From: Rhizobiales bacterium 64-17
Lineage (GTDB): Bacteria > Pseudomonadota > Alphaproteobacteria > Rhizobiales > Xanthobacteraceae
NCBI GenBank assembly: GCA_001899285.1
Contig: MKWA01000011.1
Location: forward strand, 1 to 33,873
DNA: 33,873 bases
Direction of reading: 5' to 3'
Each line of letters starts with the position of its first letter. The stretch's first letter is position 1. The notes under the pieces were generated by a model. The model saw only the letters and a list, made by a program, of their open reading frames with translations, searched no databases and was not told the DNA's origin. Shown here in pieces: positions 1,802 through 26,741 of the stretch. The position numbers were made by a program, and so were the translations under genes.

Positions 1802-2640
1802 GCCACGGCCTCCGTCTCAGGTTCCGGCACGGGTTCGGATTCTTCGAACAGCAGGCCATGAATACGTTTCATCAGCAGGCCGAATTCCGGCATGTCGACG
1901 TTTTCGTGGGTGAACCGCTCCGCATTCAGCTCCGCCCGCACGCGTCCGGGATGCGGCGACAGGACGAGAATGCGCGAGCCGACGATGATCGCTTCTTCGA
2001 TCGAATGGGTCACGAACAGCACCGTAAAGCGTGTCTGATCCCAAAGACTGAGAAGCTCCTCCTGCATCTTGCGCCGCGTCAGCGCGTCCAATGCCGCAAA
2101 CGGCTCGTCCATCAGAAGGATATCCGGCTCCATCGCCATCGCGCGGGCAATGGCGACGCGCATCTTCATGCCGCCCGACAGCATATGCGGATAGACGTCG
2201 ATGAACTTCGACAATTTGACCTTGTCGAGCACCGCAAGCGCCCGGTCGCGGATTTCGCCGCGATCAAACCGCTTCGTCGCCTGCATCGGGAACATGACGT
2301 TCTGCAGAATCGTCTTCCAGGGCATCAACTGCTCGAATTCCTGGAACACCATCATGCGATCGGGGCCCGGCGCCTTCACGACCCGGTCGCGCACCCTGAT
2401 CGTTCCTTCAACCGGTTGCATAAATCCGCCGACCGCCTTCAGCAGCGTCGACTTGCCGCAACCGGACGGCCCGAGCAGAACGAAGCGATCGGATTGATAG
2501 ACGTCGAAATCGACCTTGTATGTCGCCGTGACGAGATGTTTCGGCGTCTTGTACTGAAGCGTCGCGCCGCGCACATCCAGGATAGGCGACGGCGCTTTCG
2601 CACCGCCGCCGACACCGGCGTTAATCCCCGGATTCGCCAT
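1798..2640 (-). CDS. ABC transporter ATP-binding protein, NitT/TauT type
   Basis: This nucleotide-binding subunit of the importer has 280 residues from the ATG at 2640. It has Walker A GPSGCGKST (about 57-65), a Q-loop in VFQEFEQ, signature LSGGM (about 154), Walker B ILLMDEP (about 174-180) and the H-loop histidine in THSIEEA. It would sit on the cytoplasmic face of the permease encoded by the next gene, which it overlaps by 4 bases. The start is uncertain: a TTG at 2652 has a better Shine-Dalgarno (GGAAGGA, about 8 bases away) than the ATG at 2640, and both overlap the end of the binding-protein gene. The C-terminal tail is rich in Glu and Pro (ESEPVPEPETE) and is probably flexible. Confidence 0.93.
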   Translation of the reverse strand: MANPGINAGVGGGAKAPSPILDVRGATLQYKTPKHLVTATYKVDFDVYQSDRFVLLGPSGCGKSTLLKAVGGFMQPVEGTIRVRDRVVKAPGPDRMMVFQEFEQLMPWKTILQNVMFPMQATKRFDRGEIRDRALAVLDKVKLSKFIDVYPHMLSGGMKMRVAIARAMAMEPDILLMDEPFAALDALTRRKMQEELLSLWDQTRFTVLFVTHSIEEAIIVGSRILVLSPHPGRVRAELNAERFTHENVDMPEFGLLMKRIHGLLFEESEPVPEPETEAVA

Positions 2641-3643
2641 GAGCGTTCTCAAAGAAAAGATCCTTCCAGCTCGCGGGAGTCGATTTCAGCGTACCCACGT
2701 CCTTCATGAACTTGGCGTAAGCCACGAAGCTCCGAGGACGCATGATGAACTGCACATCCTTGTCCTTCAGGATCTCCAGAACCTCAGCCTTCGATACGCC
2801 TTCCTTTGATGACTTCAGATAGATGTCGGCCGCAGCTTCCGGATGCTCCTTGATGAACTTCTGGGAGTCTTCCATCGCCTTGTAGAAGGCCGTCAACGTC
2901 TTCGGATTTTCCTTGGCGAACGCCTCAGTCGCATAAGTGACCGAGAAGGTCGCCGGCGCGCCCATCAGCTCGTATGACGTCGCCACACGGTGCAACCCGC
3001 GCTTCAGCTCGACGTACTGATAGGGGGGCGACGCGAAGTGCGCTGTGATCTCGGTTTTCGAGAGCAGCGCCGCCATCGCGTCGGGATGCGGCAGCGACGT
3101 GGTCAGCGGATCGAGGCGCTGATAGTCCTTCTGGCCCCACTTCTTCGCCGCCCACATCTGCATGATGATCGACGGGATCGACGTTTTCACCGCAGTCACC
3201 GCAATGCGATCCTGCGAGGTGAACTGGTCGAGCGACTTGATGTCGGCCTTGCGGGTCATCAACCACATCGGCAGCAGCGACAAGGGCGCCACCGCACGCA
3301 CCGATGACGGCGTGTTCAACGTCCGATTCCACATCACGAGGAACGACGGCGGGCCGTTCGAAACGATATCGACGTTGCGCGACAACAGCGCGTCGTTCAT
3401 CGCCGCGGGGCCACCGAAGGTCAGCCACTGCGGCTTCACGGTGAGGCCCGCTTCCTTGGTCCGCTTGCCCAGGAAGTCTTGCGACTCCATCACCATCAAC
3501 GGAAGAAAACCAAGTCCGTACTGCTTGGCGATCCGCAAGTCGCTGGTTTCCGCGGACGCCGTGGTCGGCGCGATCGCCCAGCCAAGCGCCGCTGCGACAG
3601 CGCCTGCCATTACGGAGAACATCAGTGTCTTTCTTAAGTACAT
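2621..3643 (-). CDS. ABC transporter substrate-binding protein, NitT/TauT type
   Basis: This is a 340-residue periplasmic binding protein. Residues 1-31 form a Sec-type signal peptide (basic MYLRK, a hydrophobic core, cleavage after TASA). The mature part has the two-lobed SsuA/TauA-like fold expected from LRIAKQYGLGFLPLMVMES near its start. I chose ATG 3643 because a very strong Shine-Dalgarno (GGAGGGGG) lies just upstream and the signal peptide starts there; the 16 extra residues back to 3691 have no such support. It is the first gene of the importer operon and would set its specificity. The ligand cannot be read from sequence. The promoter region just upstream carries one copy of the 14-bp element shared by four units in this window. 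Confidence 0.92.
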   Translation of the reverse strand: MYLRKTLMFSVMAGAVAAALGWAIAPTTASAETSDLRIAKQYGLGFLPLMVMESQDFLGKRTKEAGLTVKPQWLTFGGPAAMNDALLSRNVDIVSNGPPSFLVMWNRTLNTPSSVRAVAPLSLLPMWLMTRKADIKSLDQFTSQDRIAVTAVKTSIPSIIMQMWAAKKWGQKDYQRLDPLTTSLPHPDAMAALLSKTEITAHFASPPYQYVELKRGLHRVATSYELMGAPATFSVTYATEAFAKENPKTLTAFYKAMEDSQKFIKEHPEAAADIYLKSSKEGVSKAEVLEILKDKDVQFIMRPRSFVAYAKFMKDVGTLKSTPASWKDLFFENAHGESGD

Positions 3644-3707
3644 GCTTCCCCCTCCTTCACACTCTGTGGCCTCTGTATGGGCCGGTTTCACCTACGTGCG
3701 CTCGATA

Positions 3708-3730: not shown

Positions 3731-3746
3731 GTATCCAGTATCCAAA
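3731..3746 (-). promoter_or_regulatory. candidate GntR-type operator, copy A
   Basis: GTATCCAGTATCCA on the plus strand matches the 14-bp element found at 8835, 12080 and 14040. It is a heptad direct repeat of GTATCC. It lies about 88 bases upstream of ATG 3643, in the opposite orientation to the other three copies relative to the gene it precedes. It sits next to the sigma-54-like element. Confidence 0.45.
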
Positions 3747-3789
3747 CATCCTTTCACAGATCGGCCAACGATCAAACTCCTCATACAAA

Positions 3790-3812
3790 TGCATACAACA
3801 CGACCGTATGCA
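3790..3812. repeat. 7-bp inverted repeat in the intergenic region 3644-3916
   Basis: TGCATAC (3790-3796) and GTATGCA (3806-3812) form a perfect inverted repeat with a 9-base spacer in an AT-rich stretch upstream of the importer operon. It could be a regulator site. The rest of 3644-3916 shows no gene. Confidence 0.4.
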
Positions 3813-3916
3813 AATGAATACAGAAGCTTTTGACATGACTTATCTATCTGAAAATCAACATTTATTTATCTCACCAAACGACGACAAACGGCTGCGGCGA
3901 ACGGCCGCCCCATCGG

Positions 3917-5146
3917 TCAGCCGGCTGCGCGAATAGTCGGAGCAGTCTTTTTCACCCAACGGGCAGTGATGTCCGCGATCCGATCAATATCCGTCGGGTC
4001 GTTGTAGGCGTGGAGCGATAGCCGCAAAACGCCGCGCCGAATGGTGTGACAGATCCCGCCCGCTTCAAATGCGTCATGCAGCGCGAGCAGCGAGGAGTCG
4101 TCCACGCTGTCATGCGTCGCGCCGATGCCATGACCGATCGCCACGATATGCGCCATTCGCGTGTCGTTGCTTTTCGCGATCAGCGGCGCGCCCACCGCTT
4201 CCAGCTTGCTCGCAAGCTGACGCGCCAATCCGCAAACATAAGACTCGAGCGCTGCCGCATCGAACGCCTGCAGCTCCTTCATCGCCTGGTTGACGGCGAC
4301 CGCGCCGACATAATTGAAATTTCCGACATCGAAACGGCGCGCGCCCGCAGCGAACCGGAACGAACTCTCGGTGCCCGAGCTCGCTTCATGCGCCGTGCCG
4401 AGATCGACACCCATCCGCGACAGATACGCCGGGCGCATCGCCTCGGCGAGCGTGCGCCGAACGAACAGGAAGCCCATACCGTAAAGGCCCAGCAACCCCT
4501 TCTGTGTCGAGACGGCGAGACCGTCGATCATGTCTGCCGCGACATCCATCCTGGCAATGCCGATCGATTGCGCACCATCGACCAGAAAGAAAATGCCACG
4601 TTCGCGGCAGGCGCGGCCAAGACGCGCCATGGGAACGCGCAGCCCCGGCGAGAACGATACACTCGAAACCGTCACCACACGGGTCTTGTCGTCGATCGCA
4701 TTGAGGACAGCATCGGCAGAAATGGCGTTGTCGACCGGTGCAACCTCGCGAACCACGATGCCGCGCGTCTGCGCCAGTGACTGCCAAACGAAGATGTTGG
4801 CGGGATGTTCAAGGCTCTGACAGATGACGACATTGTCGCCTGCCTGCCACGGCAAGGCATTAGCGACAGCGTTGATGCCATCCGACACGTTCTTCGTGAA
4901 CGAAACCTCGTCGGAATGCGCGTTGATCAGTCCCGCGAAGCGGTCGCGCGTCGTTTCGATCAAATCGAAATAAGCCTGCTTGTCGACCCGGCCGGACATC
5001 CGCACATCGAGATGCGCCGCCACAGCATCACGCACCGTGGTGGAAATCGGTCCGCGCGCCGCCACGTCGCAATAGACCTGGTTCTGCGCAGCCGGAAACA
5101 GCCGTCGAAAGGCTGCAAACTGCGCCTGATGTGCGATGTCCGTCAT
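3917..5146 (-). CDS. class V aminotransferase family PLP enzyme
   Basis: This 409-residue fold-type I PLP enzyme belongs to the class V family (cysteine desulfurase, isopenicillin N epimerase, serine-glyoxylate aminotransferase and relatives). The Schiff-base lysine is Lys216 in STQKGLLG. Asp190 in LVDGAQSIG would pair with the pyridine nitrogen, with Gln193 beside it, and RRFDVGNFNY carries the conserved C-lobe arginine region. The start overlaps the hyuB stop by 4 bases (ATGA), so it is the third gene of the hyuA-hyuB operon and is probably made in step with them. It lacks the active-site cysteine loop typical of IscS and NifS as far as I can see, so an amino-acid lyase, epimerase or transaminase role is likelier than Fe-S assembly. 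The substrate is unknown. Confidence 0.88.
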   Translation of the reverse strand: MTDIAHQAQFAAFRRLFPAAQNQVYCDVAARGPISTTVRDAVAAHLDVRMSGRVDKQAYFDLIETTRDRFAGLINAHSDEVSFTKNVSDGINAVANALPWQAGDNVVICQSLEHPANIFVWQSLAQTRGIVVREVAPVDNAISADAVLNAIDDKTRVVTVSSVSFSPGLRVPMARLGRACRERGIFFLVDGAQSIGIARMDVAADMIDGLAVSTQKGLLGLYGMGFLFVRRTLAEAMRPAYLSRMGVDLGTAHEASSGTESSFRFAAGARRFDVGNFNYVGAVAVNQAMKELQAFDAAALESYVCGLARQLASKLEAVGAPLIAKSNDTRMAHIVAIGHGIGATHDSVDDSSLLALHDAFEAGGICHTIRRGVLRLSLHAYNDPTDIDRIADITARWVKKTAPTIRAAG

Positions 5147-6729
5147 TTTGAGACTGCTTTGCCATATGCGCCGCCGCCGGGCGTGCGAATGCTGATGACC
5201 GAATCGCGCGGGAGATCGACATCCGCCATCGCGGAGCCGAGGCGCGTTTCGTTCGGCTTGCCGGGATTGAGAATGAACTCACCGACCGCGCCCGCGCCAC
5301 CGCCACCGGCACCCAGAGCCGGCACATGCTGCCGCTCTGCCGAAAGACTGACACGAATGCCATCCGCCATCGCACGATATTCGCGGATCACGCCATGGCC
5401 GCCGCGTTTCTCGCCGACGCCGCCGGAGCCGTCGCGCAGCGCGTAACGCTCAAGCCGCACCGGATAGGAATGTTCGAGCGCCTCGATCGGAAGATTGGCC
5501 GCGCCCGACGCATGGACACGAACCGCATCGATGCCAGGCCGGCTCGGCCGCGCGCCCATGCCGCCGGCGATGGTTTCGTAATTGACGAAATACGTGTCGT
5601 TGCGCGGGTCCGGCCCCGAGAACACGACGAGATGATGCGGACCGCTGCCGGCCAGCGCCTTCTCCGGCATCGCCTGCGACATCGCCGCGGCGATCGCGTC
5701 GCCGAGAACACCACAGGAGATCGAACGGCAGCCGACCGGCGCCGGATCGCAGGGCTGCACGACACAACCGCGCGGCGCTATGATTTCCATCGTATCGAAA
5801 TAGCCGGCGTTCGCCGGCACGTCCGGATCGAGCATGCTTTTGGCAACGGTGCAGATGGTCGCAACCAGCGCCTGATGCGGAATGTTGCGCGCCCAGGTGA
5901 GCTGCGGCGCACTGCCGGTGAAATCGAACACCATGCGCTTGTCCTGCACCGTCAACTTCAGGGCGATGCGCGCCTTCTCTCCCTCGTTGTCGCCGTCGAG
6001 GAAGTCTTCCGACACGTAGACGCCATTCGGAATCTTGCTGATCGCCGCTTCAAAACGCGCACGGGTGAAATCGAGGAACGCGGCAATCGTCGCCTCGGTC
6101 TTTTCGCCGTAACGCTCGAACAAGGCCTCGACGGACCGGATGCCGGCGAAGTTGGAGGCGAACTGCGCGTTGAGATCGCCGCGCCGCTCGTCGGGCGTGC
6201 GCGAATTGAGCAGGATGATTTCCTGGAGATCGCGATTGATCTTGCCCTCGCGGACAAGACGCACCGCCGGGATGCGCAGACCTTCCTGGAAGATCGAGCG
6301 GCACACCGCAGCTTCGCTGCCGGGCACCATGCCGCCCACGTCCGAGTGGTGTGCGATGTTGGCGACATAAGCCACGATCTTGCCGCGCCAGAACACCGGC
6401 GCGACGATATTGATATCGGGAAGGTGCGTGCCGCCGCCGTTATACGGATCGTTGGCGGCGAACATGTCGCCGGGGCGGATATCCGCCTCATCGAAACGCT
6501 GCTTGATGGCGTCGACCGCGCCGATCATCGAGCCGAGATGGACCGGCACCCGGTGCGCCTGAGCGATGACGCGCCCGGCCGCATCGAAGATCGCGGTGGA
6601 GCAGTCGGCCCGCTCCTTGATGTTCGGCGAGAATGACGTCCGGATCAGGGCTGCCGCCATCTCTTCCGAGATCGTGTAAAGGTGGCGCGCGACGACTTCC
6701 GCGGTGATCGCATCGACTGTGTTGCTCAT
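5143..6729 (-). CDS. hyuB: hydantoinase B / oxoprolinase family subunit
   Basis: This protein has 528 residues from ATG 6729 and is the usual length for HyuB (N-methylhydantoinase/5-oxoprolinase beta subunit). It forms an ATP-dependent amidohydrolase or carboxylase-like complex with HyuA that opens cyclic amides such as hydantoins or 5-oxoproline. Family hallmarks are visible: NIKERADCSTAIFD near the N-terminus, FAANDPYNGGGTHLPD (metal-site region), HHSDVGGMVPGS, and a glycine-rich C-terminal end (APALGAGGGGAGAVGEF, TPGGGAYG). A TTG at 6747 would overlap the hyuA stop (TTGA), but ATG 6729 begins at the conserved MSNTVDAITAEVV and is preferred. The partner HyuA is directly upstream and a PLP enzyme overlaps the 3' end. 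Acetophenone and acetone carboxylases share the family, so the reaction is not certain. Confidence 0.92.
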   Translation of the reverse strand: MSNTVDAITAEVVARHLYTISEEMAAALIRTSFSPNIKERADCSTAIFDAAGRVIAQAHRVPVHLGSMIGAVDAIKQRFDEADIRPGDMFAANDPYNGGGTHLPDINIVAPVFWRGKIVAYVANIAHHSDVGGMVPGSEAAVCRSIFQEGLRIPAVRLVREGKINRDLQEIILLNSRTPDERRGDLNAQFASNFAGIRSVEALFERYGEKTEATIAAFLDFTRARFEAAISKIPNGVYVSEDFLDGDNEGEKARIALKLTVQDKRMVFDFTGSAPQLTWARNIPHQALVATICTVAKSMLDPDVPANAGYFDTMEIIAPRGCVVQPCDPAPVGCRSISCGVLGDAIAAAMSQAMPEKALAGSGPHHLVVFSGPDPRNDTYFVNYETIAGGMGARPSRPGIDAVRVHASGAANLPIEALEHSYPVRLERYALRDGSGGVGEKRGGHGVIREYRAMADGIRVSLSAERQHVPALGAGGGGAGAVGEFILNPGKPNETRLGSAMADVDLPRDSVISIRTPGGGAYGKAVSK

Positions 6730-6743
6730 GGAACGGCTCGCTT

Positions 6744-8804
6744 TCAACGCACGGTTTCGAGATCGATGAAGATATTACCGATCCGGTCGATGCGGACTTT
6801 GGAATGGGGAGGAACGACGGTCGTGGTGTCCATCTGCTCGATGATGACAGGCCCGGCCAGCGTCGCATCGGCCGGCAGGCTTTCGCGGCGATAGACCTTG
6901 GTGTCGACGAAACCCGTCCCGGCAAACCAGACCGGACGAACTTCGATCAGCGCCTTCTCGATCGATTCACCACCACCGCTCTGCTTCCAGGCCGGCGGCA
7001 CCGGCCGGCGCACGATCACCGTGAGGCGGAGATTAACCACCTCGATGGTCTGCTCCGGCATGCGATAGCCGTAGTTCTGTTCGTGCATGCCGTGGAACAC
7101 CTCGGCCAGGCGCTCAAGCTCCGCTTCGGTGAGATTGCGATTGAACGAGGTCGACAATTCCGAATTCTGGCCGAAATAGCGCATGTCGACGTGCCACTCG
7201 TGGATCGCGAGATCCTTGTCGAGCTTCTCCGCCTTGAGCCAGTCTTCGGCGCGTTCGCGCAGCCCTTCGATGCCGTCTTTCAGGCCAGCCAGAGACCCCG
7301 GCACCATCGGCACCAGGCGCGTGACGCTGAAATCGCCGCGGGCATCGGCATGCAGCAAACCGATCGCCGAGAGCAGGCCCGGTCGCTGCGGCACGAACAC
7401 CGTCGGCATGCCGACTGTGCGCGCCACGTCCGCGGCATGCAGCGGTCCGGCGCCGCCGAACGGCATCAGCGCGTAAGTGCGAGGATCCTCGCCCTGCTCG
7501 ACCGAGATGACGCGGACCGCGCCCATCATGTTAACATTGACGATTTCCAGAACGCCCGACGCGGCGCGTTCGAGATCAATGCCGAGCGGCTGGCAGAGAT
7601 GCTTTTCGAGCGCGACGCGCGCCCGCTCGGGATAGACCGGCATGCGGCCATCGAGCAGCGTCTTCTGATTGAGACGGCCGAGCGCCATGTTGGCATCGCT
7701 GACGGTCGGAAGTTCGCCGCCGCGGCCATAGCAGGCCGGGCCGGGACGCGCGCCGGCACTCTTCGGACCGACCTTGATGAGACGGCCCGGATCGACCCAG
7801 GCGATGCTCCCGCCACCGGCACCGATGGTGTGGATATCCAGCGTGCGGGTGCGCACCGGAAAGCCGCCCATCTCGCGGACGCTCTGATTGTTCGGATTGC
7901 CGTCGCGGATCAGGCAGACATCGGTGGACGTGCCGCCCATGTCGAAGGTGATGATGCGGTTGACCTCGGCGGCGACGCCGAGGCTGGCGGCGCCGATCAC
8001 GCCGCCGGCGGGACCGGAGAAGAACGTATTGACCGGCGCACGGCGCACCGCATCGGGCGAGACCGCGCCGCCATTCGATTGCATCACCCGCGGTTCGTCC
8101 GGAATGCCGAGCGAACGGACCCCGTTCTCGAAACGCTGCAGATAGCGGTCCATGACCGGCATCAGGCTGGCGTTCACCGTCGCGGTCGCGAAGCGTTCGT
8201 ATTCGCGGAATTCCGCGAGGATGTCCGAGGAGGCGCACACATAGGCTTCCGGCCATTCCGCCTTGACCGCGTCGCGGGCGCGCTGCTCGTGCTCCGGCGT
8301 CGCATAGGAATGCAGGAAGCAGATCGCCACCGACTCGCAGCCCAGATCGCGCAGCTTGCGCGTCGCCGCGCGCACCGCATCGGTATCGAGCGGTGTGACG
8401 ATCTCGCCGTCGTAGCCGACGCGCTCGGGCACCTCGATGCGCGCCTCGCGCAACGCCGGCGGGACCGGTTTCGGAATATCGAGATTGAAGAAGCTGGGGC
8501 GACGCTGCCGCGCGAGTTCGAGCACGTCACGGAAGCCTTCCGTCGTGATCATGCCTGTGGGCGCCCATTTGCCTTCGAGGACGGCGTTGGTCGCGAGGGT
8601 CGTCCCGTGACTGAGCAACCCCACATCTGCGGGGGCGAACCGGGCGAGATCGAGGATTTCGCTGATGCCGGTCAGAATGCCCTTGGAGGCATCCTCCGGC
8701 GTCGTCGGAACCTTGTGAAAGATGTAATTCCCGCTTTTGACGTCAACGAGCACCAAATCGGTGAAGGTTCCGCCGGTATCGATCCCAATCCAAACGTTTC
8801 GCAC
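6744..8804 (-). CDS. hyuA: hydantoinase A / oxoprolinase family subunit
   Basis: This 686-residue protein is the ATP-binding subunit paired with HyuB. The actin/ASKHA-type phosphate motifs are visible: DTGGTFTD at residues 9-16, LSHGTTLATNAV (about 65-76), DMGGTSTD in the middle, GAGGGSIAW, and the family signature KSAGARPGPACYGRGG. It would use ATP to activate a cyclic amide or related carbonyl for ring opening by the complex. It starts with GTG at 8804 behind AGGACAAGG. It is the first gene of the hyuA-hyuB-aminotransferase operon, whose promoter and candidate operator lie at 8835-8872. The length is normal and no motif is missing. The acetone-carboxylase-like alternative cannot be excluded, but no gamma subunit is present. 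Confidence 0.93.
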   Translation of the reverse strand: MRNVWIGIDTGGTFTDLVLVDVKSGNYIFHKVPTTPEDASKGILTGISEILDLARFAPADVGLLSHGTTLATNAVLEGKWAPTGMITTEGFRDVLELARQRRPSFFNLDIPKPVPPALREARIEVPERVGYDGEIVTPLDTDAVRAATRKLRDLGCESVAICFLHSYATPEHEQRARDAVKAEWPEAYVCASSDILAEFREYERFATATVNASLMPVMDRYLQRFENGVRSLGIPDEPRVMQSNGGAVSPDAVRRAPVNTFFSGPAGGVIGAASLGVAAEVNRIITFDMGGTSTDVCLIRDGNPNNQSVREMGGFPVRTRTLDIHTIGAGGGSIAWVDPGRLIKVGPKSAGARPGPACYGRGGELPTVSDANMALGRLNQKTLLDGRMPVYPERARVALEKHLCQPLGIDLERAASGVLEIVNVNMMGAVRVISVEQGEDPRTYALMPFGGAGPLHAADVARTVGMPTVFVPQRPGLLSAIGLLHADARGDFSVTRLVPMVPGSLAGLKDGIEGLRERAEDWLKAEKLDKDLAIHEWHVDMRYFGQNSELSTSFNRNLTEAELERLAEVFHGMHEQNYGYRMPEQTIEVVNLRLTVIVRRPVPPAWKQSGGGESIEKALIEVRPVWFAGTGFVDTKVYRRESLPADATLAGPVIIEQMDTTTVVPPHSKVRIDRIGNIFIDLETVR

Positions 8805-8834
8805 GCCTTGTCCTATTCAAAGGGAGAGAGGATT

Positions 8835-8872
8835 CTGGATACAGGATACCTGCAAAGCGATTTCAATGGCAA
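8835..8872 (-). promoter_or_regulatory. hyuA promoter with candidate GntR-type operator, copy B
   Basis: The gene-strand sequence GGTATCCTGTATCCAG (8835-8850) carries the shared 14-bp element. On the same strand, TTGCCA (8867-8872) and TATCCT (8843-8848) are spaced 18 bases apart and resemble sigma-70 -35 and -10 boxes. The element overlaps the -10, as expected for a repressor site. The start codon is 31 bases downstream of the element. Confidence 0.5.
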
Positions 8873-8941
8873 GAGGGCCCGGCGCCCCGCGACCGGGTTA
8901 TGCGTGCTGTTGATCCCGGTTGCGCGCCTGATCCCCGGTTA

Positions 8942-8980
8942 TCCGCCCTGTTGAGGGGAATTCCGCCTTGTTGAGGGGAA
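8942..8980. repeat. 19-bp direct repeat pair
   Basis: TCCGCC(C/T)TGTTGAGGGGAA occurs at 8942-8960 and 8962-8980, with 18 of 19 positions identical and a 1-base gap. Confidence 0.8.
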
Positions 8981-9186
8981 ATATCGGAGGTCGCTCAGGG
9001 TTGCCGATCGACAGCCGGCCCCTAACGCCGGTGGCGCCCTCCGGGCCGGTCGCCACGACCACGATCAATGCGGCCGCGGCCGTCCGCGCCGAACCCGCCA
9101 CCGATTTCCCCGCTGGCCGCTATCACTCGGTCAATCCGTACCGCCTCCCCGCACCAATCCGGTCTGGCCGGGTGTCATCGGCATGA

Positions 9187-9224
9187 CCTCCAAATTTCGG
9201 CACGGCCTCCAAATTTCCGCGCGG
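9187..9224. repeat. 19-bp tandem repeat pair
   Basis: Two adjacent units beginning CCTCCAAATTTC (9187-9205 and 9206-9224) share 17 of 19 positions. They are unrelated in sequence to the pair at 8942-8980, in either orientation. Confidence 0.75.
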
Positions 9225-9405
9225 ACCATTGGTCGAGCGCAGGGCAAACGTCCAGGACGGGAAAGACCGGAAACCCATTCACGGTCGCCAAACCGGCACC
9301 GCTGAAAACCGTATGTTCGCCGCGCATGACACGACACACAGATTGTTCGCGCACGCTTCCTGCGTGATCGTTCGCGCACGTGCAGAAATGCCCTGCCTGT
9401 GGCGC

Positions 9406-10143
9406 TTATTTCTCGCGCGAGATCAGTTCCTGCATGCCGACGCCGGTCTCGAACAGGTGGTTCTGCATGGCGTCGCCGGCGGCATCGAAATCACCCTTCT
9501 CCACCAGCGCCAGAATCTGCTCGTGCCATTTCTGATTGAGCAGAAGATGATCGACGTAATCGTTGGTCAGGACCGGGTTCTTTTCGATCATCAGCTTGAG
9601 CGATGAGCGCGCATAAAGCGTCAACCGCGAAATGTGCTCGATCACATGCCGCGCATAAGGGTTCTGGCTGCCCTCGATGAAATAGCGGTGAAACCGGGTG
9701 TTCAGCATGAACACCTCCTGGAACGCCCGCTCGGCCAGCCGCTCCCGGGTTTTTTTGATCAGCGCGTACAGCGCATCGATGTCCGCCCTGCTGATCTCGC
9801 CCTTGAAATCGCGAACCGCCAGCGCCTCAAGAACCGCGCGGCAGCGATAGAGCAGATTGAGGTCGGAAGGCCCGATCGCCTTGAGGACGTAGCCGCCGTT
9901 CGCCACCGGATCGAGGATGCCGTCCTGCTGCAGCTTGCGGAACGCTTCGCGCACCGGCGTGCGGCTGACGTTGAGATTCTCCGCCCATTCCACGTCGCGC
10001 AAGCGCTTGCCGACCGGCACCGCGCCGTCGAGGATCTTGCGCCACATGATGTCGTAGATCTGGTCGTAGAGCGGATCGGTCCGCGCGACCCGGTCAGTTG
10101 CGTTTTCGGCCGCCGCGCGGAGAATGTCGCTGACAGCTGTCAT
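9406..10143 (-). CDS. GntR family transcriptional regulator, FadR/FCD subfamily
   Basis: This 245-residue regulator has an N-terminal winged helix (about 22-90; NVSRTPVREAFRKLQQDGIL is the typical recognition region) and a C-terminal all-helical FCD ligand-binding domain. RFHRYFIEGSQN and the later QKWHEQILALVEKGD carry conserved FCD histidines that bind a metal near the effector. FCD members usually repress catabolic operons and release DNA on binding an organic acid or amino acid. The gene follows the HD-domain gene after 49 bases, with its own Shine-Dalgarno (GGAG), and appears to be last in the unit that starts at 12025. The 14-bp element before that unit suggests autoregulation. The same element precedes three other units here, so this is the best candidate for a local regulon repressor. 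Confidence 0.92.
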   Translation of the reverse strand: MTAVSDILRAAAENATDRVARTDPLYDQIYDIMWRKILDGAVPVGKRLRDVEWAENLNVSRTPVREAFRKLQQDGILDPVANGGYVLKAIGPSDLNLLYRCRAVLEALAVRDFKGEISRADIDALYALIKKTRERLAERAFQEVFMLNTRFHRYFIEGSQNPYARHVIEHISRLTLYARSSLKLMIEKNPVLTNDYVDHLLLNQKWHEQILALVEKGDFDAAGDAMQNHLFETGVGMQELISREK

Positions 10144-10190
10144 TCTGGCACTCCGTTTCTGGACTTGCGGAAGCTCGTCGAGACGCCCGC

Positions 10191-10841
10191 TTACAATGAA
10201 ATCGGGCGGATATACTTCTGCGATTCAGTGCCCGGCTGAATCAGATCACCCGCTAACATAATCGTCCAATAGCCGATATCGGCAACATGGACGATGGTGC
10301 ACGCGAGGCTGCGGACCAGCAATTCACCCTCCCCGGAATGCGCTGCAGCCATGTGCGCGACCTCCTCCGGCAAGCCGACAGTCAGGCAAATGAACGCGCC
10401 ATAGGCGTTGTGGCGAAGCGACGGCAGACCGACACGCCGCGGCGCTTCACGCCACCGCTTGAGGTTGTTTGCGTCGTATTCCCAAGGCTTGCCGACATCG
10501 TGGCACAAACCGCCGGCAATGATGATGTCGCGGTCGATTTTCATGTCCGGGTTGGAGGCCGCGAACTCGTCGGCCAGCGCCATCGCCGCGCGCGTCACAC
10601 CCCGAATATGATCGGTCTGGTCGCCGCGCTTGAGAACCATCTTGCCGGGATTGCCGGATGGCGGCATGTCACGGAGTGACGCGAAGCTGCTGTTGTGGAT
10701 CGCCAGCGCCCAGGCGTTGATCACGCGCTGGCGCAAATCCTCGTTCTTGATCTCTTCCACCTCGGGCAGTTCGGCGCGCATCTGCGCCCGCAGCTCCTCG
10801 GAAACATTGGTGTCGATCGAATTGATGTCGAGAACGTTCAT
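10191..10841 (-). CDS. HD-domain metal-dependent hydrolase
   Basis: This 216-residue protein has a clear HD phosphohydrolase signature: His78 in DQTDHIRG, His114-Asp115 in GGLCHDVGK and Asp188 in HVADIGYW. Additional His144 and His168 could bind a second metal. The family cleaves phosphomonoesters or phosphodiesters of nucleotides; some members (inositol oxygenase-like) instead do oxygen chemistry at a di-iron site. ATG 10841 was chosen because CGGAGTG lies upstream and HD homology begins just after; the open frame extends further, to 11189, inside the neighbouring gene and is not used. It sits between a D-amino-acid PLP enzyme and the GntR regulator, 41 and 49 bases apart. A catabolic rather than housekeeping role is therefore likely, but the substrate is unknown. 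Confidence 0.82.
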   Translation of the reverse strand: MNVLDINSIDTNVSEELRAQMRAELPEVEEIKNEDLRQRVINAWALAIHNSSFASLRDMPPSGNPGKMVLKRGDQTDHIRGVTRAAMALADEFAASNPDMKIDRDIIIAGGLCHDVGKPWEYDANNLKRWREAPRRVGLPSLRHNAYGAFICLTVGLPEEVAHMAAAHSGEGELLVRSLACTIVHVADIGYWTIMLAGDLIQPGTESQKYIRPISL

Positions 10842-10882
10842 AACACTCCGTCTGCTTTCTTTTGCCGATTGTCCGGAACCCG

Positions 10883-12025
10883 TCACCATCCCGAGAAGCG
10901 ATCCCACACCTCGGTGATGGCCCCATCGTTCCCGGCCACCACATGGTAGTGTTGATGCTGCGCGGCCGTGGCGCAGGCATGGTTCGGCAGGATGCGAACG
11001 CGGTCGCCCAGCTTGAGCGGCGGCAGCGACGCCGAACTGCCCGGACGCAACGCCAGAATCCCCTGCTCCTGATTGGCCGTCGTCATGATCAGGTCCGGAT
11101 AAACCCGGCCCTCCAGATCGGTCACGACGCCATATCCCTGATCGACCGGCTGGGCCGCGGTGCCGCGATCGCGCGACATCGCCATCCATCCGGCATCGAC
11201 GAGAATCCAGCCCTTGTCCGTCCGCGTCCCGATCACGGTCGCGAGAACGCTCAAGGCGATGTCGTCGATCCCGCAGACACCGATTCCGGCCATGACCAGA
11301 TCGAAGAACACGAAGACGCCAGCGCGCACTTCGGTCACGCCGGTGAGATCCCGTGCCGACAGCGCGGTCGGTGTCGCGCCGACGCTGACCACCGGCACCG
11401 GCAAACCGGCCGCCCGCAACGCTGTCGCGCAGCGGACCACGGCATCGCGCTCGCCATCCGCAGCGGTCTGCAGTGCCGCCTGGCCGCGCGCGAAATAGGA
11501 CTCACCCGCATGCGTCAGCACGCCGGCCAGCACCGCACCGCCATCGTGCAAGGCGCGTCCCACCGCCACCACCTGATCAAGCTCACGCACACTCAGACCA
11601 GCCCGGTGTCCATCGCTGTCGATTTCGATAAAAGCGGGAATCGGATTGCCGTTGGCACGGCTATAGGCCGCAACCGCTTGTGCGGCATCGAGGCTGTCGA
11701 CCAGAATTGACAGATCGACGCCACGCTGACGAAGCGCGACAACACGCGGAAGCTTGTCAGGCGTGATCCCGACTGCGTAGACAATGTCGGTGACACCGGC
11801 CGCCGCGAACTGTTCCGCTTCGAGGAGCGTCGACACCGTGGCCGGGCCGCGCGGACTGTCCATCAGCCGTCGTGCGATCGGCACCGACTTGGCGGTCTTA
11901 AGATGTGGGCGGAACGATGCCTTGCGCGCGCGGACCGCGCTTCGCATCCGCTTGATATTCGCGCCCATCTTGTGGTCGTCGAGCACCAGCGCGGGAGTCG
12001 GCAAAGTGGCGAGCGTCAGTTCCAC
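10883..12025 (-). CDS. D-threonine aldolase / D-serine dehydratase-like PLP enzyme (DSD1 family)
   Basis: This 380-residue fold-type III PLP enzyme has an alanine-racemase-like TIM barrel plus a C-terminal metal-binding domain. Lys43 in RPHLKTAKS is the Schiff-base lysine. PNHAC near residues 347-351 supplies the His349 and Cys351 that bind zinc or another divalent metal in D-serine dehydratases and D-threonine aldolases. Such enzymes cleave or dehydrate D-beta-hydroxy amino acids (D-threonine, D-serine, 3-hydroxy-D-aspartate). It starts with GTG at 12025 with only a weak Shine-Dalgarno. It is the first gene of a three-gene unit with the HD protein and the GntR regulator, and copy C of the shared element lies 55 bases upstream. 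The stereochemistry of the substrate cannot be settled from sequence. Confidence 0.88.
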   Translation of the reverse strand: MELTLATLPTPALVLDDHKMGANIKRMRSAVRARKASFRPHLKTAKSVPIARRLMDSPRGPATVSTLLEAEQFAAAGVTDIVYAVGITPDKLPRVVALRQRGVDLSILVDSLDAAQAVAAYSRANGNPIPAFIEIDSDGHRAGLSVRELDQVVAVGRALHDGGAVLAGVLTHAGESYFARGQAALQTAADGERDAVVRCATALRAAGLPVPVVSVGATPTALSARDLTGVTEVRAGVFVFFDLVMAGIGVCGIDDIALSVLATVIGTRTDKGWILVDAGWMAMSRDRGTAAQPVDQGYGVVTDLEGRVYPDLIMTTANQEQGILALRPGSSASLPPLKLGDRVRILPNHACATAAQHQHYHVVAGNDGAITEVWDRFSGW

Positions 12026-12079
12026 GGCGATTCCAGTATTGGACAGCGCGGCGGGTCACAGATCCGCATCCGCCTGATA

Positions 12080-12114
12080 CTGGATACAGAATACCAGGTA
12101 CACTTGCCTGTCAA
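12080..12114 (-). promoter_or_regulatory. promoter with candidate GntR-type operator, copy C
   Basis: CTGGTATTCTGTATCCAG (gene strand, 12080-12097) matches the shared element and also has CTGG/CCAG arms. TTGACA (12109-12114) lies 15 bases from TATTCT (12088-12093), so a sigma-70 promoter with a short spacer overlaps the element. It drives the PLP enzyme, HD protein and GntR unit. Confidence 0.5.
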
Positions 12115-12158
12115 ACCAACACATGTCTTCGTCAAGAACACGCGACCCCGTCGGGGGC

Positions 12159-12184
12159 GAGGCAAGTCACTGAGGCAAGTCACT
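12159..12184. repeat. 13-bp perfect tandem duplication at a gene end
   Basis: GAGGCAAGTCACT occurs twice in direct succession (12159-12171, 12172-12184), followed by the related GCGGCAAAAG. It spans the stop codon of the small membrane protein gene, so the duplication may have reset its C-terminus. Confidence 0.75.
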
Positions 12185-12413
12185 GCGGCAAAAGCATTTC
12201 CGTGATCAGTCGCACGATCTCGACATAGCTCATGACGACGATCCCACCGGCAAATGCCACCAGCAGGGCGACGAGCACCGCCGGCACCAGACCGAGCGGC
12301 AGTGCGATCCACAGAGCCATCACGGCGGCCGCCAGCACAAACACCGTTCCGCCGACCTTCCCGTAACGCACGATCAAACCGAGGGTCGGATAATCCTTCA
12401 TCGCATCCATCAT
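12180..12413 (-). CDS. small two-helix membrane protein
   Basis: This 77-residue protein matches no family I recognise. It has a short polar N-terminus (MMDAMKDYPTLG) and two strongly hydrophobic segments at about residues 20-39 and 42-65, separated by a tight GLVP turn, so it is almost certainly a membrane hairpin. The start overlaps the flavoprotein stop by 4 bases (ATGA), so it is translated coupled to it. The pairing suggests a membrane anchor, or a partner passing electrons from the flavoprotein to quinone. This is inference from context only. No heme-binding histidines or Fe-S cysteines are present, so it is not itself a redox carrier. Confidence 0.75.
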   Translation of the reverse strand: MMDAMKDYPTLGLIVRYGKVGGTVFVLAAAVMALWIALPLGLVPAVLVALLVAFAGGIVVMSYVEIVRLITEMLLPQ

Positions 12414-13879
12414 CGTTCCTCCACGCCGCGCGCGGCGCCCACAAGCTTTCCCTGTTCGGCAATTTGATCAGCGGCGCGCAGACCGAACACGCCCGCCTTG
12501 ATGAGACCACCGACATAACCGAAGTTGCCGCCTTCCAGTCCGCCGGTCGCGGCGCCGGCAGCAAACAGACCGGGAATTGGCGTGCGGTCGGCGCGCAACA
12601 CCGCGCCGTGGCCGTCAATCAGCAACCCACCCATCGTATAGGTGATGCCCGGCAACAGCGGAAATGCCCTGTAGGACGGCGTGTCGAGCGGTTGCGGCAT
12701 TACTCCGCGCTGCCGCGGCGGCGTCAGATCGGCGCCGCGCTTGTGAGCGAGCGCTTCGTTATAGGCGCGCACCGTCTCCGCGAGTCCATCGGCGTCGATG
12801 CCGGCCTCGTCGGCGAGCGCGCGAACCGTATCCGCGCTGAAGAATGTTGCGCCGGCATTCGTCATGAGCGGATTGGCGGGAATGCGCGCGGTCCGCCCCG
12901 GTCCATCCCAGACCTTCGCGTCGAACACGGCGAACACCGGTGAGACGTCCTGTCGCGATGCCAGCAGATTTGCCAACCCGACGCCGCCGACGCCTTCGTC
13001 GAACAGCCGCTTGCCATTGGCGTCGACCACAATGCCGGCGACGGCGAGTTCATCCGCCTGCGGATATGGCCACAGTTTCGGATTGGTCAGCGCGTCGCGA
13101 TGCAGCAGATGGCCGTAAAAGCGATCGCAGCGCGTTAATCCCGCGCCGACCTTCTGCGCCATCCGGATGCCGTCACCATGCGCGTTGGCCGCACCGCGCT
13201 GAAAGACTTCCTCGAAATGCGGCCCGATATTGGCGCGGAACAACTCGGCGTCCGATTGAAACCCGCCATCGGCGATCACCACGAAGCGGCCGCGAAATGC
13301 GATCTCCTGTCCGTCACGGTCGGCGACCACGCCGGTGCAACGGCCCTCCTCGACGATCAGTTCGCGCGCCCTGGTGCGCAGCGACAACGTGCCGCCATTC
13401 CGGAGGAACACCACCATCAGCCGCCGCAACGTCACATCGGGACCGCGGCCTTCCCAGTCGGTGCCCGGCCGGCGCCGCCGCGGCGGCGCCATGCTCCACT
13501 TGTAACCTTCCTTGAAGTTGAAGCGCATGAAGCGCGTGCCGTGGCTCTGCAGCCAACGCAGCAAGCGCCGCCCATCGCGCGCAACCGCATCCGCCACGCC
13601 CGGATCGACATCGCCGCCGGTAACGCGGTTGATGACATCGATCAGTTGCTCGGGCGGGCGATGCGGATCATGAAAACCGATGTGCACGATTCCGCCGGAG
13701 TAGCGCGAATTGCACGGATAGCGTTCACCATCGCCCTGTTCGATCAAGACGACACGAAGTCCGAGTTCCTGCGCGTGAACCGCGGCACACAAACCGGCCA
13801 GACCGCCGCCGACCACAACGATGTCGTGCAAAGCCAAATCGCGAGGGGCGGAAATGGAAACGACCGGTTCTGACGTCAT
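12410..13879 (-). CDS. FAD-dependent oxidoreductase, fumarate reductase/TcuA-like flavoprotein
   Basis: This 489-residue flavoprotein belongs to the FAD_binding_2 family (fumarate reductase, 3-ketosteroid dehydrogenase, tricarballylate dehydrogenase). The N-terminal dinucleotide fold shows VVVGGGLAGLCAAVHAQELG with the ribose-binding acidic residue in LIEQGDG. The C-terminal FAD motif is PIPGLFAAGAATGGLEGGNFGY. At the position where succinate dehydrogenases link FAD to histidine there is CNSRYSGG, so the cofactor is probably non-covalent. There is no signal peptide. It likely oxidises or reduces a C-C bond of a carboxylate intermediate. It is followed by an overlapping membrane protein gene and is divergent from an amino-acid ABC importer; the intergenic region carries a 16-bp palindrome and copy D of the shared element. 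The substrate is unknown. Confidence 0.88.
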   Translation of the reverse strand: MTSEPVVSISAPRDLALHDIVVVGGGLAGLCAAVHAQELGLRVVLIEQGDGERYPCNSRYSGGIVHIGFHDPHRPPEQLIDVINRVTGGDVDPGVADAVARDGRRLLRWLQSHGTRFMRFNFKEGYKWSMAPPRRRRPGTDWEGRGPDVTLRRLMVVFLRNGGTLSLRTRARELIVEEGRCTGVVADRDGQEIAFRGRFVVIADGGFQSDAELFRANIGPHFEEVFQRGAANAHGDGIRMAQKVGAGLTRCDRFYGHLLHRDALTNPKLWPYPQADELAVAGIVVDANGKRLFDEGVGGVGLANLLASRQDVSPVFAVFDAKVWDGPGRTARIPANPLMTNAGATFFSADTVRALADEAGIDADGLAETVRAYNEALAHKRGADLTPPRQRGVMPQPLDTPSYRAFPLLPGITYTMGGLLIDGHGAVLRADRTPIPGLFAAGAATGGLEGGNFGYVGGLIKAGVFGLRAADQIAEQGKLVGAARGVEER

Positions 13880-14000
13880 GGCTCGGAAATTGCTCTACCA
13901 GGATCGGAGGTGCTGTTTGAACGCTTTTCCATGCGCCCGTCACACCGTGACCGTCTCCATCGACGACATGTTCGTCATTGTGACGACCGCCATAACGACA

Positions 14001-14016
14001 GTCGACAATTGTCGAC
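14001..14016. promoter_or_regulatory. perfect 16-bp palindrome between divergent genes
   Basis: GTCGACAATTGTCGAC is a perfect palindrome, 122 bases upstream of the flavoprotein start and 85 bases upstream of the ABC importer start. It partly contains a second palindrome, TTGTCGACAA (14009-14018). Both have the look of a dimeric regulator site. It differs from the 14-bp element nearby, so a second regulator or a second half-site type may act here. Confidence 0.5.
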
Positions 14017-14020
14017 AAAC

Positions 14021-14057
14021 TTGCCAATCCGTTTGAACACAGTATCCTGTATACATC
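14021..14057 (+). promoter_or_regulatory. ABC importer promoter with candidate GntR-type operator, copy D
   Basis: AGTATCCTGTATACATC (14041-14057) carries the shared element. TTGCCA (14021-14026) and TATCCT (14043-14048), 16 bases apart, resemble -35 and -10 boxes, so the element again overlaps the -10. The start codon is at 14101, behind a strong AAGGGGGAATGAG. Confidence 0.5.
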
Positions 14058-14100: not shown

Positions 14101-14916
14101 ATGATCTCGCGTCGCGCACTCACACTCGGTTTGTCGGCCATTGCGGTCGGTGCTCTCACGCTGTCCGCTCATGCGGAGACGCTCGACGCCGTCAAGAAGA
14201 AGGGCGTGCTGTCGGTCGGCGTGAAAGCGGACTCGCGGCCGTGGGGTTATCTTGATCCGCAGGGCCAGCCGATCGGCATGGAGATTGATCTCGCCAAGAA
14301 CGTCGCCGATCGTCTCGGCGTGAAGTTCGAAGCCGTCATCGTTCAAAGCTCCAACCGCATTCAGTTCCTGGAGCAAGGCCGCGTCGATATGCTGATCGCA
14401 ACCATGTACGACACACCGGAGCGCCGGCGCGTGATCGACATGGTCCAGCCGCATTATTATTCGGCGGCCACCAACATCCTCGCGCCCAAGAGCGCCAACC
14501 TGAAGTCCTGGGAAGAGCTGCGCGGCAAGAAAGTCTGCGGCCAGCAGGGCAGCGTCTATAACAAGTGGATCGAGCGCACCTACGGCGCATCGGCAATGTC
14601 GCTGCCGACCATCGAGGAAGGCTACGCGGCGCTGCGCGCCGGCAACTGCGTCGGCTTTGTGTACAACGATCTGCTGCTGGAGATGGCGGCGGAGCAACCG
14701 ATCTGGGCCGGCTATACGGTGCCGCTCAAGAGCGAGGACCGCCAGTATCACTCGATCGGCGTGCGCAAGGGCGAGGCCGAGACGCCGTTCGGCAAGAAGC
14801 TGTCGGAGATCGTTATCGACTGGCACCGCACCGGCTATCTGAAAGAGCTGAACAAGAAGTGGGGTATCCCCGCGAACGAATATCTCGAGGAAGCCGCCAA
14901 GAAATACGCACGTTGA
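14101..14916 (+). CDS. polar amino acid ABC transporter substrate-binding protein (family 3)
   Basis: This 271-residue periplasmic binding protein is of the amino-acid-binding SBP_bac_3 type. A signal peptide of about 25 residues begins MISRRALTLG (an RR pair, possibly Tat-compatible) and ends at SAHA. The mature part follows the family layout: GVLSVGVKADSRPWGYLDPQG, GMEIDLAKNVADRLGVK, then the arginine-containing MYDTPERRRVIDM and the lobe crossing VCGQQGSVYNKWIERTYG. The start has a strong Shine-Dalgarno (AAGGGGG). It leads an SBP-permease-permease-ATPase operon under promoter D. The family imports polar amino acids, opines or related small zwitterions. The ligand here is unknown but should relate to the hydantoinase/D-amino-acid genes if the shared element defines one regulon. 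Confidence 0.92.
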   Translation: MISRRALTLGLSAIAVGALTLSAHAETLDAVKKKGVLSVGVKADSRPWGYLDPQGQPIGMEIDLAKNVADRLGVKFEAVIVQSSNRIQFLEQGRVDMLIATMYDTPERRRVIDMVQPHYYSAATNILAPKSANLKSWEELRGKKVCGQQGSVYNKWIERTYGASAMSLPTIEEGYAALRAGNCVGFVYNDLLLEMAAEQPIWAGYTVPLKSEDRQYHSIGVRKGEAETPFGKKLSEIVIDWHRTGYLKELNKKWGIPANEYLEEAAKKYAR

Positions 14917-14925
14917 CGCCGTTCG

Positions 14926-15669
14926 ATGTTCGGGATCGACGACTGGTTCCGGAGGCTGTACGACACCTCCGGAATCAATTTTACCTACCTCTATGATGCT
15001 TATGATCGCGGCCGGTTCCTGGCAGGCATCGTCCTGACGCTCGAACTGGCGGCGATCTGCATTATCGCATCCATTGTGATCGGCGTGGTCGGCGCAGCAC
15101 TGCACGGTTCGCGCTTTCGCGTCACCAATGCGCTGGTGCGCGGCTATGTGGCGCTGTTCCGCAACACGCCGCCGCTGGTGCAGCTGTTCTTTTTCTTCTT
15201 CGTGCTCGGTGGTCTGCTCACCTTCAAGACCCCCTACGGCACGTTTCAGCTCAGCAATTTCACCTGGGCTGCGATTTCGCTGTCGGTCTATTACGGCAGC
15301 TTCAACATCGAGAATTTCCGGGCCGGAATCGAGTCGGTGCCGCGCACGATGGTTCAGGCCGCCGAGGCGCTCGGCTATCGCAAGGGACAGATTTATCTCT
15401 ACGTCATCCTGCCGCTGGCGTTCCGCTTCAGCCTGCCGGCCCTCGGCAATACGCTGGTCAGTCTCGTCAAGGCAACGTCGCTTGCCTACGCCATCGCTGT
15501 TCCGGAAGTGCTCTATGTGTCGTCCGAGATATGGAGCGACCAGCTCAACGTCCCGGAGATGATGGTGACGATCATGGTGTTCTACGTCACGCTGGTCAGC
15601 ATCATGGTGTACGCGATCCACCGGTTCGAGAAACGCCTGCGGATTCCGGGCTATTCGGCGGGGCGCTAG
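14926..15669 (+). CDS. amino acid ABC transporter permease 1 (HisM/GlnP type)
   Basis: This 247-residue permease belongs to the His/Glu/Gln/Arg/opine family. An amphipathic N-terminus is followed by about five membrane segments. The family motif RNTPPLVQLFF is near residues 81-91, and the EAA loop around ESVPRTMVQAAEALGYRKGQ contacts the ATPase. It begins 9 bases after the binding-protein stop with a weak Shine-Dalgarno, which suggests translational coupling, and ends 2 bases before the second permease. Confidence 0.93.
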   Translation: MFGIDDWFRRLYDTSGINFTYLYDAYDRGRFLAGIVLTLELAAICIIASIVIGVVGAALHGSRFRVTNALVRGYVALFRNTPPLVQLFFFFFVLGGLLTFKTPYGTFQLSNFTWAAISLSVYYGSFNIENFRAGIESVPRTMVQAAEALGYRKGQIYLYVILPLAFRFSLPALGNTLVSLVKATSLAYAIAVPEVLYVSSEIWSDQLNVPEMMVTIMVFYVTLVSIMVYAIHRFEKRLRIPGYSAGR

Positions 15670-15671
15670 AG

Positions 15672-16514
15672 ATGACACAGCACACCGTCGAGCATCAGCA
15701 TCCGTTGTCGGCCCGCAGCAGCGTTCCGCGCGGCAGGCTGGCGCGCACGGCGCTGACCGCCGGATTCGTCCTGTCGGTCATTGTGGTCGTCACCGTGCCG
15801 CTCTACGGCGCCTACGCCGCGACCGGCACCAGTGCCGGCACGCTCGAGACGCTGGCGAAATGGGCGCCTCTCATTCTGCTCGGCTTTGGGCTCAACCTGT
15901 TGATGAGTTTCATCGCCATGGGCATCGGCACCGTCGCCGGCGTGGGCCTCGGCATCGCGCAGGTGTCTCAGGTCTCCTGGGTGCGCCGCGCCGCCTGGGC
16001 CGCAACCGAAATGTTCCGGAACACACCGACGCTGATCCTGCTGTTCATGGCCATGTTCCTGCTGCCGTTCGAGCTGCGTTTCGGTGACCTGGTGATTGCG
16101 CTCCCGCCGTGGCTCAAGGCCATTCTCGGCTTCTCGCTCTCGATGATGGCCTATGTGTCGGAGATCGTGCGCGGCGGTTTGCAGTCGATTCCGACCACGC
16201 AATGGGAAGCGGCCGAAGCCCTCGCTTTCACCCGGCGCGACACGCTGCGGCTTGTGATTATCCCACAGTGCTTCAAGCAGATGCTGCCGCCGTGGATGAA
16301 CGTCTACGCGATCATGATCATGTCGACGCCGCTGGCGTCGATCCTCGGCGTCCATGAAGGACTGACAATCACCCGCTCGGCGATTTCCGCGGAAGGGCAA
16401 CCGGAACTGCTCGCGCCGTTCTATCTGTTCCTGCTGGCGCTGTTCTTCGTCTATTCCTATCCGATCTCGCTCTGGACGCTGCGGCTGGAGCGGCGCTACG
16501 CAATCAAGCATTGA
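15672..16514 (+). CDS. amino acid ABC transporter permease 2 (HisQ/GlnP type)
   Basis: This is a 280-residue permease from ATG 15672, which lies two bases after the stop of permease 1. A polar N-terminus of about 30 residues precedes an extra hydrophobic helix (about 31-52) and then the permease core. FRNTPTLILLF is the counterpart of the RNTP motif in permease 1, and GLQSIPTTQWEAAEALAFTRRDT is the EAA coupling loop. It would form a heterodimeric membrane channel with permease 1. The open frame reaches back to 15531 inside permease 1, but that part is out of context and not used. Confidence 0.93.
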   Translation: MTQHTVEHQHPLSARSSVPRGRLARTALTAGFVLSVIVVVTVPLYGAYAATGTSAGTLETLAKWAPLILLGFGLNLLMSFIAMGIGTVAGVGLGIAQVSQVSWVRRAAWAATEMFRNTPTLILLFMAMFLLPFELRFGDLVIALPPWLKAILGFSLSMMAYVSEIVRGGLQSIPTTQWEAAEALAFTRRDTLRLVIIPQCFKQMLPPWMNVYAIMIMSTPLASILGVHEGLTITRSAISAEGQPELLAPFYLFLLALFFVYSYPISLWTLRLERRYAIKH

Positions 16515-16524
16515 ACGGGGAACC

Positions 16525-20802: not shown

Positions 20803-20806
20803 CACA

Positions 20807-25946: not shown

Positions 25947-25948
25947 GA

Positions 25949-26728: not shown

Positions 26729-26741
26729 GTTAGAACTCCTT

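Follow-up and report, generated by a model that had tools for sequence, protein, structure and literature searches.

The first 33,873 nucleotides of contig 11 (C11; MKWA01000011.1) in the 26-contig, 4.63-Mb genome of Rhizobiales bacterium 64-17, hereafter the window, contain a cluster of importer and catabolic genes around a gene for a GntR-family regulator (9406-10143), and a 14-bp element made of two tandem heptads recurs in front of several of these genes. Is this element the operator of that GntR protein, and does it join the genes behind it into one regulon, as the initial annotation of the stretch proposed? We consider it highly probable that the element is the operator through which this GntR protein represses five promoters, four in the window and one on contig 7 (C7), until a metabolite of the pathway releases it. 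Searched for with the pattern GTATCCTGTATCCA at no more than one mismatch, the window yields four copies, all in promoter regions:

3731-3744, plus strand: element copy with one mismatch, GTATCCA GTATCCA
8836-8849, minus strand: exact element copy, GTATCCT GTATCCA, with a partial third heptad GAATCCT
12081-12094, minus strand: element copy with one mismatch, GTATTCT GTATCCA, with a third heptad GTATCAG
14042-14055, plus strand: element copy with one mismatch, GTATCCT GTATACA

All four had been recorded before, the two on the minus strand with starts (8835 and 12080) one base too low, and the accompanying statement that the window holds no further copy is borne out at this stringency. When up to three mismatches are allowed, there are seven matches, of which three read the same arrays in overlapping registers, versus 0.77 expected from 100 shuffles, none of which reaches seven. 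The whole genome adds a single copy, exact, at C7:5303-5316, in front of a PALP-family threonine-synthase-like (ThrS-like) gene that is followed by MmgE/PrpD and Amdase-like genes; the next-best sites, two on contig 9, have two mismatches each. The copies are not scattered, then: four of the five lie in the cluster, and the gene behind the remaining one is kept by three relatives in their cluster or on the same contig. The 42 other genomes of the genus hold eight sites with at most one mismatch, one in each of eight genomes, and at that rate (8 per 42) a Poisson estimate puts the chance of five sites in one genome at about 2 in a million; the reversed control pattern gives none in the genome itself and three in the other 42. 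It is extremely improbable that the copies are chance promoter-like words, that is, a -10 hexamer TATCCT or TATACA preceded by G and repeated: the heptad does contain a -10-like hexamer, so that promoters are expected to be enriched for part of it, but this does not sit well with five copies here against eight in 42 genomes together, with the retention of sites at the same genes in relatives, or with the empty control promoters described below. The surroundings of three of the eight sites outside this genome were inspected. In two genomes of the genus the copy (L184:369 and L166:1501) is embedded in a near-identical stretch, GCGA.AGCGGGTATCCAGTATC.ACAAAGATAAGTAAC, and no gene of the cluster lies close by.

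The genes of the cluster are the following:

911-3691, minus strand: NMT1-type ATP-binding cassette (ABC) importer, with binding protein 2621-3691 (PF13379), ATPase 1798-2652 (PF00005) and permease 911-1801 (PF00528)
3917-5146, minus strand: pyridoxal phosphate (PLP) enzyme of the class-V aminotransferase fold (PF00266)
5143-6747, minus strand: hyuB, hydantoinase B/oxoprolinase
6744-8804, minus strand: hyuA, hydantoinase A/oxoprolinase; best NCBIfam label caprolactamase alpha, below cut-off
9406-10143, minus strand: GntR regulator with FCD domain (PF00392, PF07729), Atu1419-like (VanR group); closest PDB chain 6z74
10191-10850, minus strand: HD-domain protein (PF01966)
10883-12025, minus strand: DSD, PLP enzyme of the D-serine dehydratase/D-threonine aldolase type (PF01168, PF14031)
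12410-13879, minus strand: flavin adenine dinucleotide-dependent oxidoreductase, TcuA-like, divergent from the 14042 element
14101-17271, plus strand: amino-acid-type ABC importer, with family-3 binding protein 14101-14916 (PF00497), permeases 14926-15669 and 15672-16514 (PF00528 twice) and ATPase 16525-17271 (PF00005)

The distances of about 30 to 90 bases between element and start codon given previously are confirmed: 31 bp from the 8836 element to the start of hyuA (GTG 8804), 55 bp from the 12081 element to that of DSD, the D-amino-acid PLP gene (GTG 12025), 45 bp from the 14042 element to that of the family-3 binding-protein gene, SBP3 (ATG 14101), and 87 bp from the 3731 element, which lies on the strand opposite to its importer gene, to ATG 3643 of the NMT1-type binding-protein gene (39 bp if the start is GTG 3691). 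Because the gaps between DSD and HD and between HD and GntR, all in the same direction, are only 32 and 47 bp (the HD start being taken at 10850), the GntR gene is very probably part of the unit that follows the 12081 site and subject to autoregulation. The flavoprotein pair, which had been included as a possible member through the intergenic region shared with the 14042 element (162 bp from the divergent flavoprotein start), is weakly supported as part of the regulon. The NCBIfam labels of the pathway enzymes all fall below cut-off and may serve as leads only: hyuA/hyuB are labeled caprolactamase, DSD is labeled BhcC, the Amdase-like protein of the relative G029 is labeled EutA/arylmalonate decarboxylase, and the contig 7 enzyme is labeled threonine synthase. 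DSD, for instance, is weakly like the 3-hydroxy-D-aspartate aldolase BhcC (NF045642, 97.5 bits against a cut-off of 690). A tRNA-Ala called by ARAGORN at 9432-9510, inside the GntR gene, is probably a false call, and Rfam gives no match in the window.

Orthologs of the GntR protein are rare; they were found in G029, of the same genus (46% identical, 43 genomes searched), in G092, of the same family (51%, 391 genomes), and, within the order (397 genomes), in G516 (45%) and, more distantly, G666 (34%). No new ortholog came from the class (385 genomes, E 1e-25) or the phylum (329 genomes, alignment query, E 1e-50), the searches from family to phylum having scored the best few first-look candidates per genome, or from the family of G516 (8 genomes) and the genus of G092 (5 genomes). 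Plasmids gave only partial matches of 36%, and a scan of genome contigs gave no relative with the single protein and 80 loci with the five-sequence GntR alignment, which at no more than 44% identity over the best segment, mostly about 30%, are probably paralogs. The order DSD-HD-GntR-hyuA-hyuB-aminotransferase is kept in G029 and G516, where the ThrS-like gene lies on the cluster contig about 5 and 7 kb, respectively, from the aminotransferase gene; G092 has all these genes and the ThrS-like gene within 16 kb in a different order.

Promoters were scored by their best site within 200 bp upstream relative to the consensus from the genome itself, a site with at most three mismatches being counted. 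By this measure, the element stands upstream of hyuA in all three close relatives (G029, G516, G092), upstream of the ThrS-like gene in the same three (exact in G516) and hence in 4/4 genomes when our own is included, and upstream of DSD in two (G029 and G516, not G092). In total, 10 of the 13 promoters from GntR-bearing genomes have a site (G029 3/3, G516 4/4, G092 2/5, G666 1/1), or 8/11 without an importer remnant in G516 and the distant G666, compared with 6/1063 background windows, a count inflated because three of the background loci were fetched for having a match. Among loci without this GntR none of 12 promoters has a site, the best showing four mismatches; start coordinates of the genes of relatives and controls are approximate in these counts, and some of the control promoters may be internal to operons. 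In G204 and G048, the clearest controls, which keep DSD (59% identical), HD (48-64%) and the NMT1-type importer (binding protein 48-50%) and lack a GntR ortholog at threshold, no site within three mismatches was found in 20 kb, G048 belonging to the same genus as G092, where both GntR and sites are present. Thus, in keeping with the single regulon originally proposed, relatives that retain the GntR gene carry the element upstream of the same genes, the two loci without it do not, and the regulon is extended by a fifth unit encoding the ThrS-like, MmgE/PrpD and Amdase-like proteins.

The three genes of this unit stay together in all four genomes (our own, G029, G092 and G516). The fifth site is 5.3 kb from the end of its contig, and the window likewise begins at a contig end, so that contigs 7 and 11 may be neighbors in the genome; the first 400 bases of each share no 16-mer. 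Contig 7 starts with an array of the 5-base repeat TCAGA (C7:1-100, or L031:1-100), the likely reason for the assembly break there. Four MmgE/PrpD-like stretches are detected by tblastn near the fifth site (L031:217-4370 and 6563-7978), and a further MmgE/PrpD gene is present in the window at 29999-31450.

Directly upstream of the fifth site is a second regulator gene, C7:4468-5187, the product of which has GntR and FCD domains and the sequence SRTPVREA in its recognition helix, and it is the most plausible candidate if another regulator were to bind the element, leaving the window GntR with other targets. Its position and domains speak for this alternative, as do its relatives, 47-48% identical, in G092 and G516. 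We nevertheless regard it as distinctly unlikely: at the loci of relatives no such gene was seen next to the one for the ThrS-like protein, whereas in each of the four genomes the window GntR or its ortholog shares a cluster with the sites, and in G029, which still has three sites, the matches to the contig 7 protein reach only 30-38%, so that, with no close ortholog there, it does not qualify as the common factor.

The 14 sites aligned from the four genomes share two tandem heptads, GTATNCN. The first G and C of the element (positions 1 and 6) are constant in 14/14 sites each and their counterparts in the second heptad (G8 and C13) in 14/14 and 13/14, a spacing of five bases that resembles TGTATACA; heptad positions 1, 3, 4 and 6 are constant in 13-14 of the 14 sites in both heptads, and variation is seen at the fifth position of each heptad and at the seventh of the first heptad. 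Scored against the 8-mer TGTATNCA, a heptad with its preceding base, the core heptads have a mean match of 5.7 and 6.4 out of 7, the following heptad 3.0 and the preceding one 2.3, compared with 0.9-2.1 at 16 offsets that are out of phase. Accordingly, only some of the sites have a third heptad, with a score of at least 4 after the core at our hyuA and DSD, G029 ThrS and DSD, and G516 hyuA, and before it at our DSD and SBP3 and G092 hyuA. This 8-mer is near-palindromic (GT-N2-NC), and because of this near symmetry the sites occur in both orientations relative to the gene, seven one way and seven the other. Left out of the alignment were the weak G666 site, L065:756-770, which lies inside the open reading frame 472-1794, and the other matches with up to two mismatches (four of seven in G029, three of four in G092, 20 of 20 in G666), those of G029 and G092 having no match to a cluster protein within about 1.5 kb. 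The G516 hyuA site forms the center of a perfect 52-bp palindrome (L068:10167-10218), which extends roughly as far as the presumed start of hyuA and may be a cruciform-like operator or an assembly effect.

What kind of protein would read such a site? The window GntR has a winged helix-turn-helix domain (PF00392, E 1.2e-10, 41.4 bits, cut-off 27) and an FCD domain (PF07729, E 8.7e-19, 68.6 bits, cut-off 24.3), and its closest PDB relative by profile is Atu1419 of Agrobacterium fabrum (6z74, E 2.3e-28; further entries 6za0, 6za3, 6za7 and 6zab), a distant likeness by single sequence (55.8 bits). The VanR group is characterized by an effector domain with six helices, not seven. The residues by which Atu1419 contacts DNA (Arg31, Ser44, Arg45, Thr46, Arg49) align with R47, S60, R61, T62 and R65 of the window protein, and its zinc ligands N137, H141, H192 and H214 with N148, H152, H207 and H229, a predicted metal site invariant in the five GntR sequences. 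The Atu1419 study describes it as a VanR-group FCD GntR repressor that binds ATGTATACAT, with a palindrome overlapping -10 boxes, and represses three genes of a catabolic pathway; in the complex, Arg45 contacts G3 and Thr46 contacts A5, and changing G3 and its partner C8 abolishes binding (PMC7797058). The equivalent bases are positions 1, 6, 3 and 4 of the heptad, the most constant of the operator, and the earlier assignment of the element to the GntR type gains from the fact that the nearest solved relative binds nearly the sequence of one heptad. The two systems are alike in recognition-helix residues, zinc ligands, the GTATAC core of ATGTATACAT within the heptads and overlap with -10. They differ in that Atu1419 binds 10-bp palindromes that stand singly, a pair of them in one region being separated by 190 bp, with a tetramer able to loop DNA (PMC7797058), whereas the cores here are tandem, at 7-bp steps, and usually imperfect (TGTATCCA).

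The initial annotation had taken NanR of E. coli as the model, and here the GntR assignment stands while the structural model is better replaced by Atu1419. Direct repeats of a GTAT core are common to our element and the (GGTATA)3 operator of NanR, in which the repeats are spaced at 8-9 bp rather than 7 bp. The NanR study gives at least two repeats as needed for high affinity and cooperativity as dependent on a 32-residue N-terminal extension (PMC8012715). Such an extension is not seen in the orthologs, the window GntR having about 15 residues before the helix-turn-helix that they lack, and the NCBIfam NanR model scores 42.1 bits against a cut-off of 260, so that NanR is a useful analogy for the repeats and no family assignment. 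In the FadR subfamily, many orthologous groups are reported to have a further box whose distance from the site center is 7-12 nt, and one class of sites separates GT from AC by 2 nt (Suvorova et al. 2015, PMC4494728); that box, as described there, is weaker than the main site, unlike our two heptads, which are almost equally conserved.

Under the operator reading, the GntR protein would bind the heptads at or near -10, perhaps as dimers side by side, and block RNA polymerase at five targets, namely, the NMT1-type importer, hyuA-hyuB-aminotransferase, its own unit DSD-HD-gntR, the family-3 importer and the ThrS-like/PrpD/Amdase-like unit of contig 7; a pathway substrate or intermediate lodged in the FCD pocket would then release it, so that uptake and breakdown are induced together. 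Repression is favored because the best-defined promoters have a -10 that overlaps or adjoins the element, where a bound protein would block the polymerase. At our hyuA (8836) and SBP3 (14042), a TTGCCA -35 hexamer is followed at 18- and 16-bp spacing by the in-element TATCCT as -10, and G029 hyuA likewise has TTGCCA with a -10 hexamer (TATCCT or TATACA) inside the element at 16-18 bp; in three other promoters of relatives, with the same range of spacing, -10 overlaps the 14-bp core by one base or directly precedes it (G029 ThrS, TTGCCA/TATACT; G516 hyuA, TTGCCT/TATCCT; G092 hyuA, TTGACC/TATACA). The -10 overlap claimed earlier for three copies stands for 8836 and 14042, both with TTGCCA/TATCCT; at 12081, TTGACA is present and the -10 fit is poorer, and the 3731 promoter has no convincing -35/-10 pair. 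We find it rather unlikely that the window GntR, bound to the element, activates transcription, whether at all the promoters or at some of them with repression at the rest. The element lacks a convincing -10 coincidence at our NMT1 and DSD and at DSD of G029 and G516, and mixed effects are described for HypR, another GntR (PMC6608401); on the other side are the clearest promoters, which suit repression, and the repressor Atu1419 with its palindrome over -10 (PMC7797058).

Repression by the window GntR through the element has, nonetheless, several observations to contend with. Good ortholog genomes are only three, and conservation across the 14 sites is partly by construction, the sites having been chosen by a mismatch limit. 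G029 has the GntR but no copy with at most one mismatch, its three sites each having two, and in G092 the promoters of HD, the NMT1 binding protein and GntR are without a site within three mismatches; the NMT1 gene of G092 may need no site of its own because the aminotransferase gene lies 144 bp ahead of it in the same direction. No family-3 binding protein was found in G516: the gene behind L068:12996 was considered for it and rejected, since only an importer remnant is present there (L068:13028-13523), in which a short secreted-type reading frame start is followed some 130 bases on by a broken piece of ATPase that contains an internal stop and matches the ATPase of the window's family-3 importer at 72% identity. 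The 3-mismatch site before this remnant is the one instance in relatives, so that among the originally listed members the family-3 importer appears weakly conserved as to its site. A clean -10 overlap is absent at our NMT1, ThrS and DSD, at G029 DSD, at G516 DSD and ThrS and at G092 ThrS, and the -35/-10 matches come from best-of searches with no background control. Many GntR proteins have the motif SRTPVREA, and because it is so common, the residue match to Atu1419 indicates compatibility rather than unique specificity; the specificity for the window GntR would follow from co-occurrence and from the lack of a close relative of the contig 7 GntR in G029. Finally, simultaneous occupation of adjacent heptads by dimers is uncertain, because at a 7-bp step neighboring 10-bp footprints overlap by 3 bp.

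Binding, repression, side-by-side dimers on the heptads and the inducer are what we infer from these comparisons, and together they describe an uncharacterised yet ordinary kind of local GntR regulon, one that we did not find described in the open-access literature. We can conceive, as a tentative and somewhat doubtful elaboration, of a VanR-type GntR without the NanR extension that acts on tandem overlapping operators at 7-bp steps, with dimers winding round the DNA and a sharp switch-on, to control an undescribed catabolic pathway; with the same reserve, this pathway might comprise the ATP-dependent hydantoinase/lactamase, BhcC-like aldolase, threonine-synthase-like, PrpD-type and Amdase-like enzymes and the two importers. 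Assigning motif, regulator and five transcription units together would allow an as yet unassigned catabolic pathway to be treated as one regulon, including the three-gene unit on another contig. It would also provide a test case for a VanR-group GntR on closely spaced tandem sites, for which Atu1419, with single palindromes, and NanR, with repeats and an N-terminal arm, give different answers.

Beyond this system, the window holds an acyl-CoA catabolic cluster (18072-29887) in which no element was found within three mismatches. It encodes two coenzyme A (CoA) transferases, 3-hydroxyacyl-CoA and acyl-CoA dehydrogenases, two enoyl-CoA hydratases and an AMP-binding ligase, and it ends next to a sigma-54 activator gene (28256-29887).

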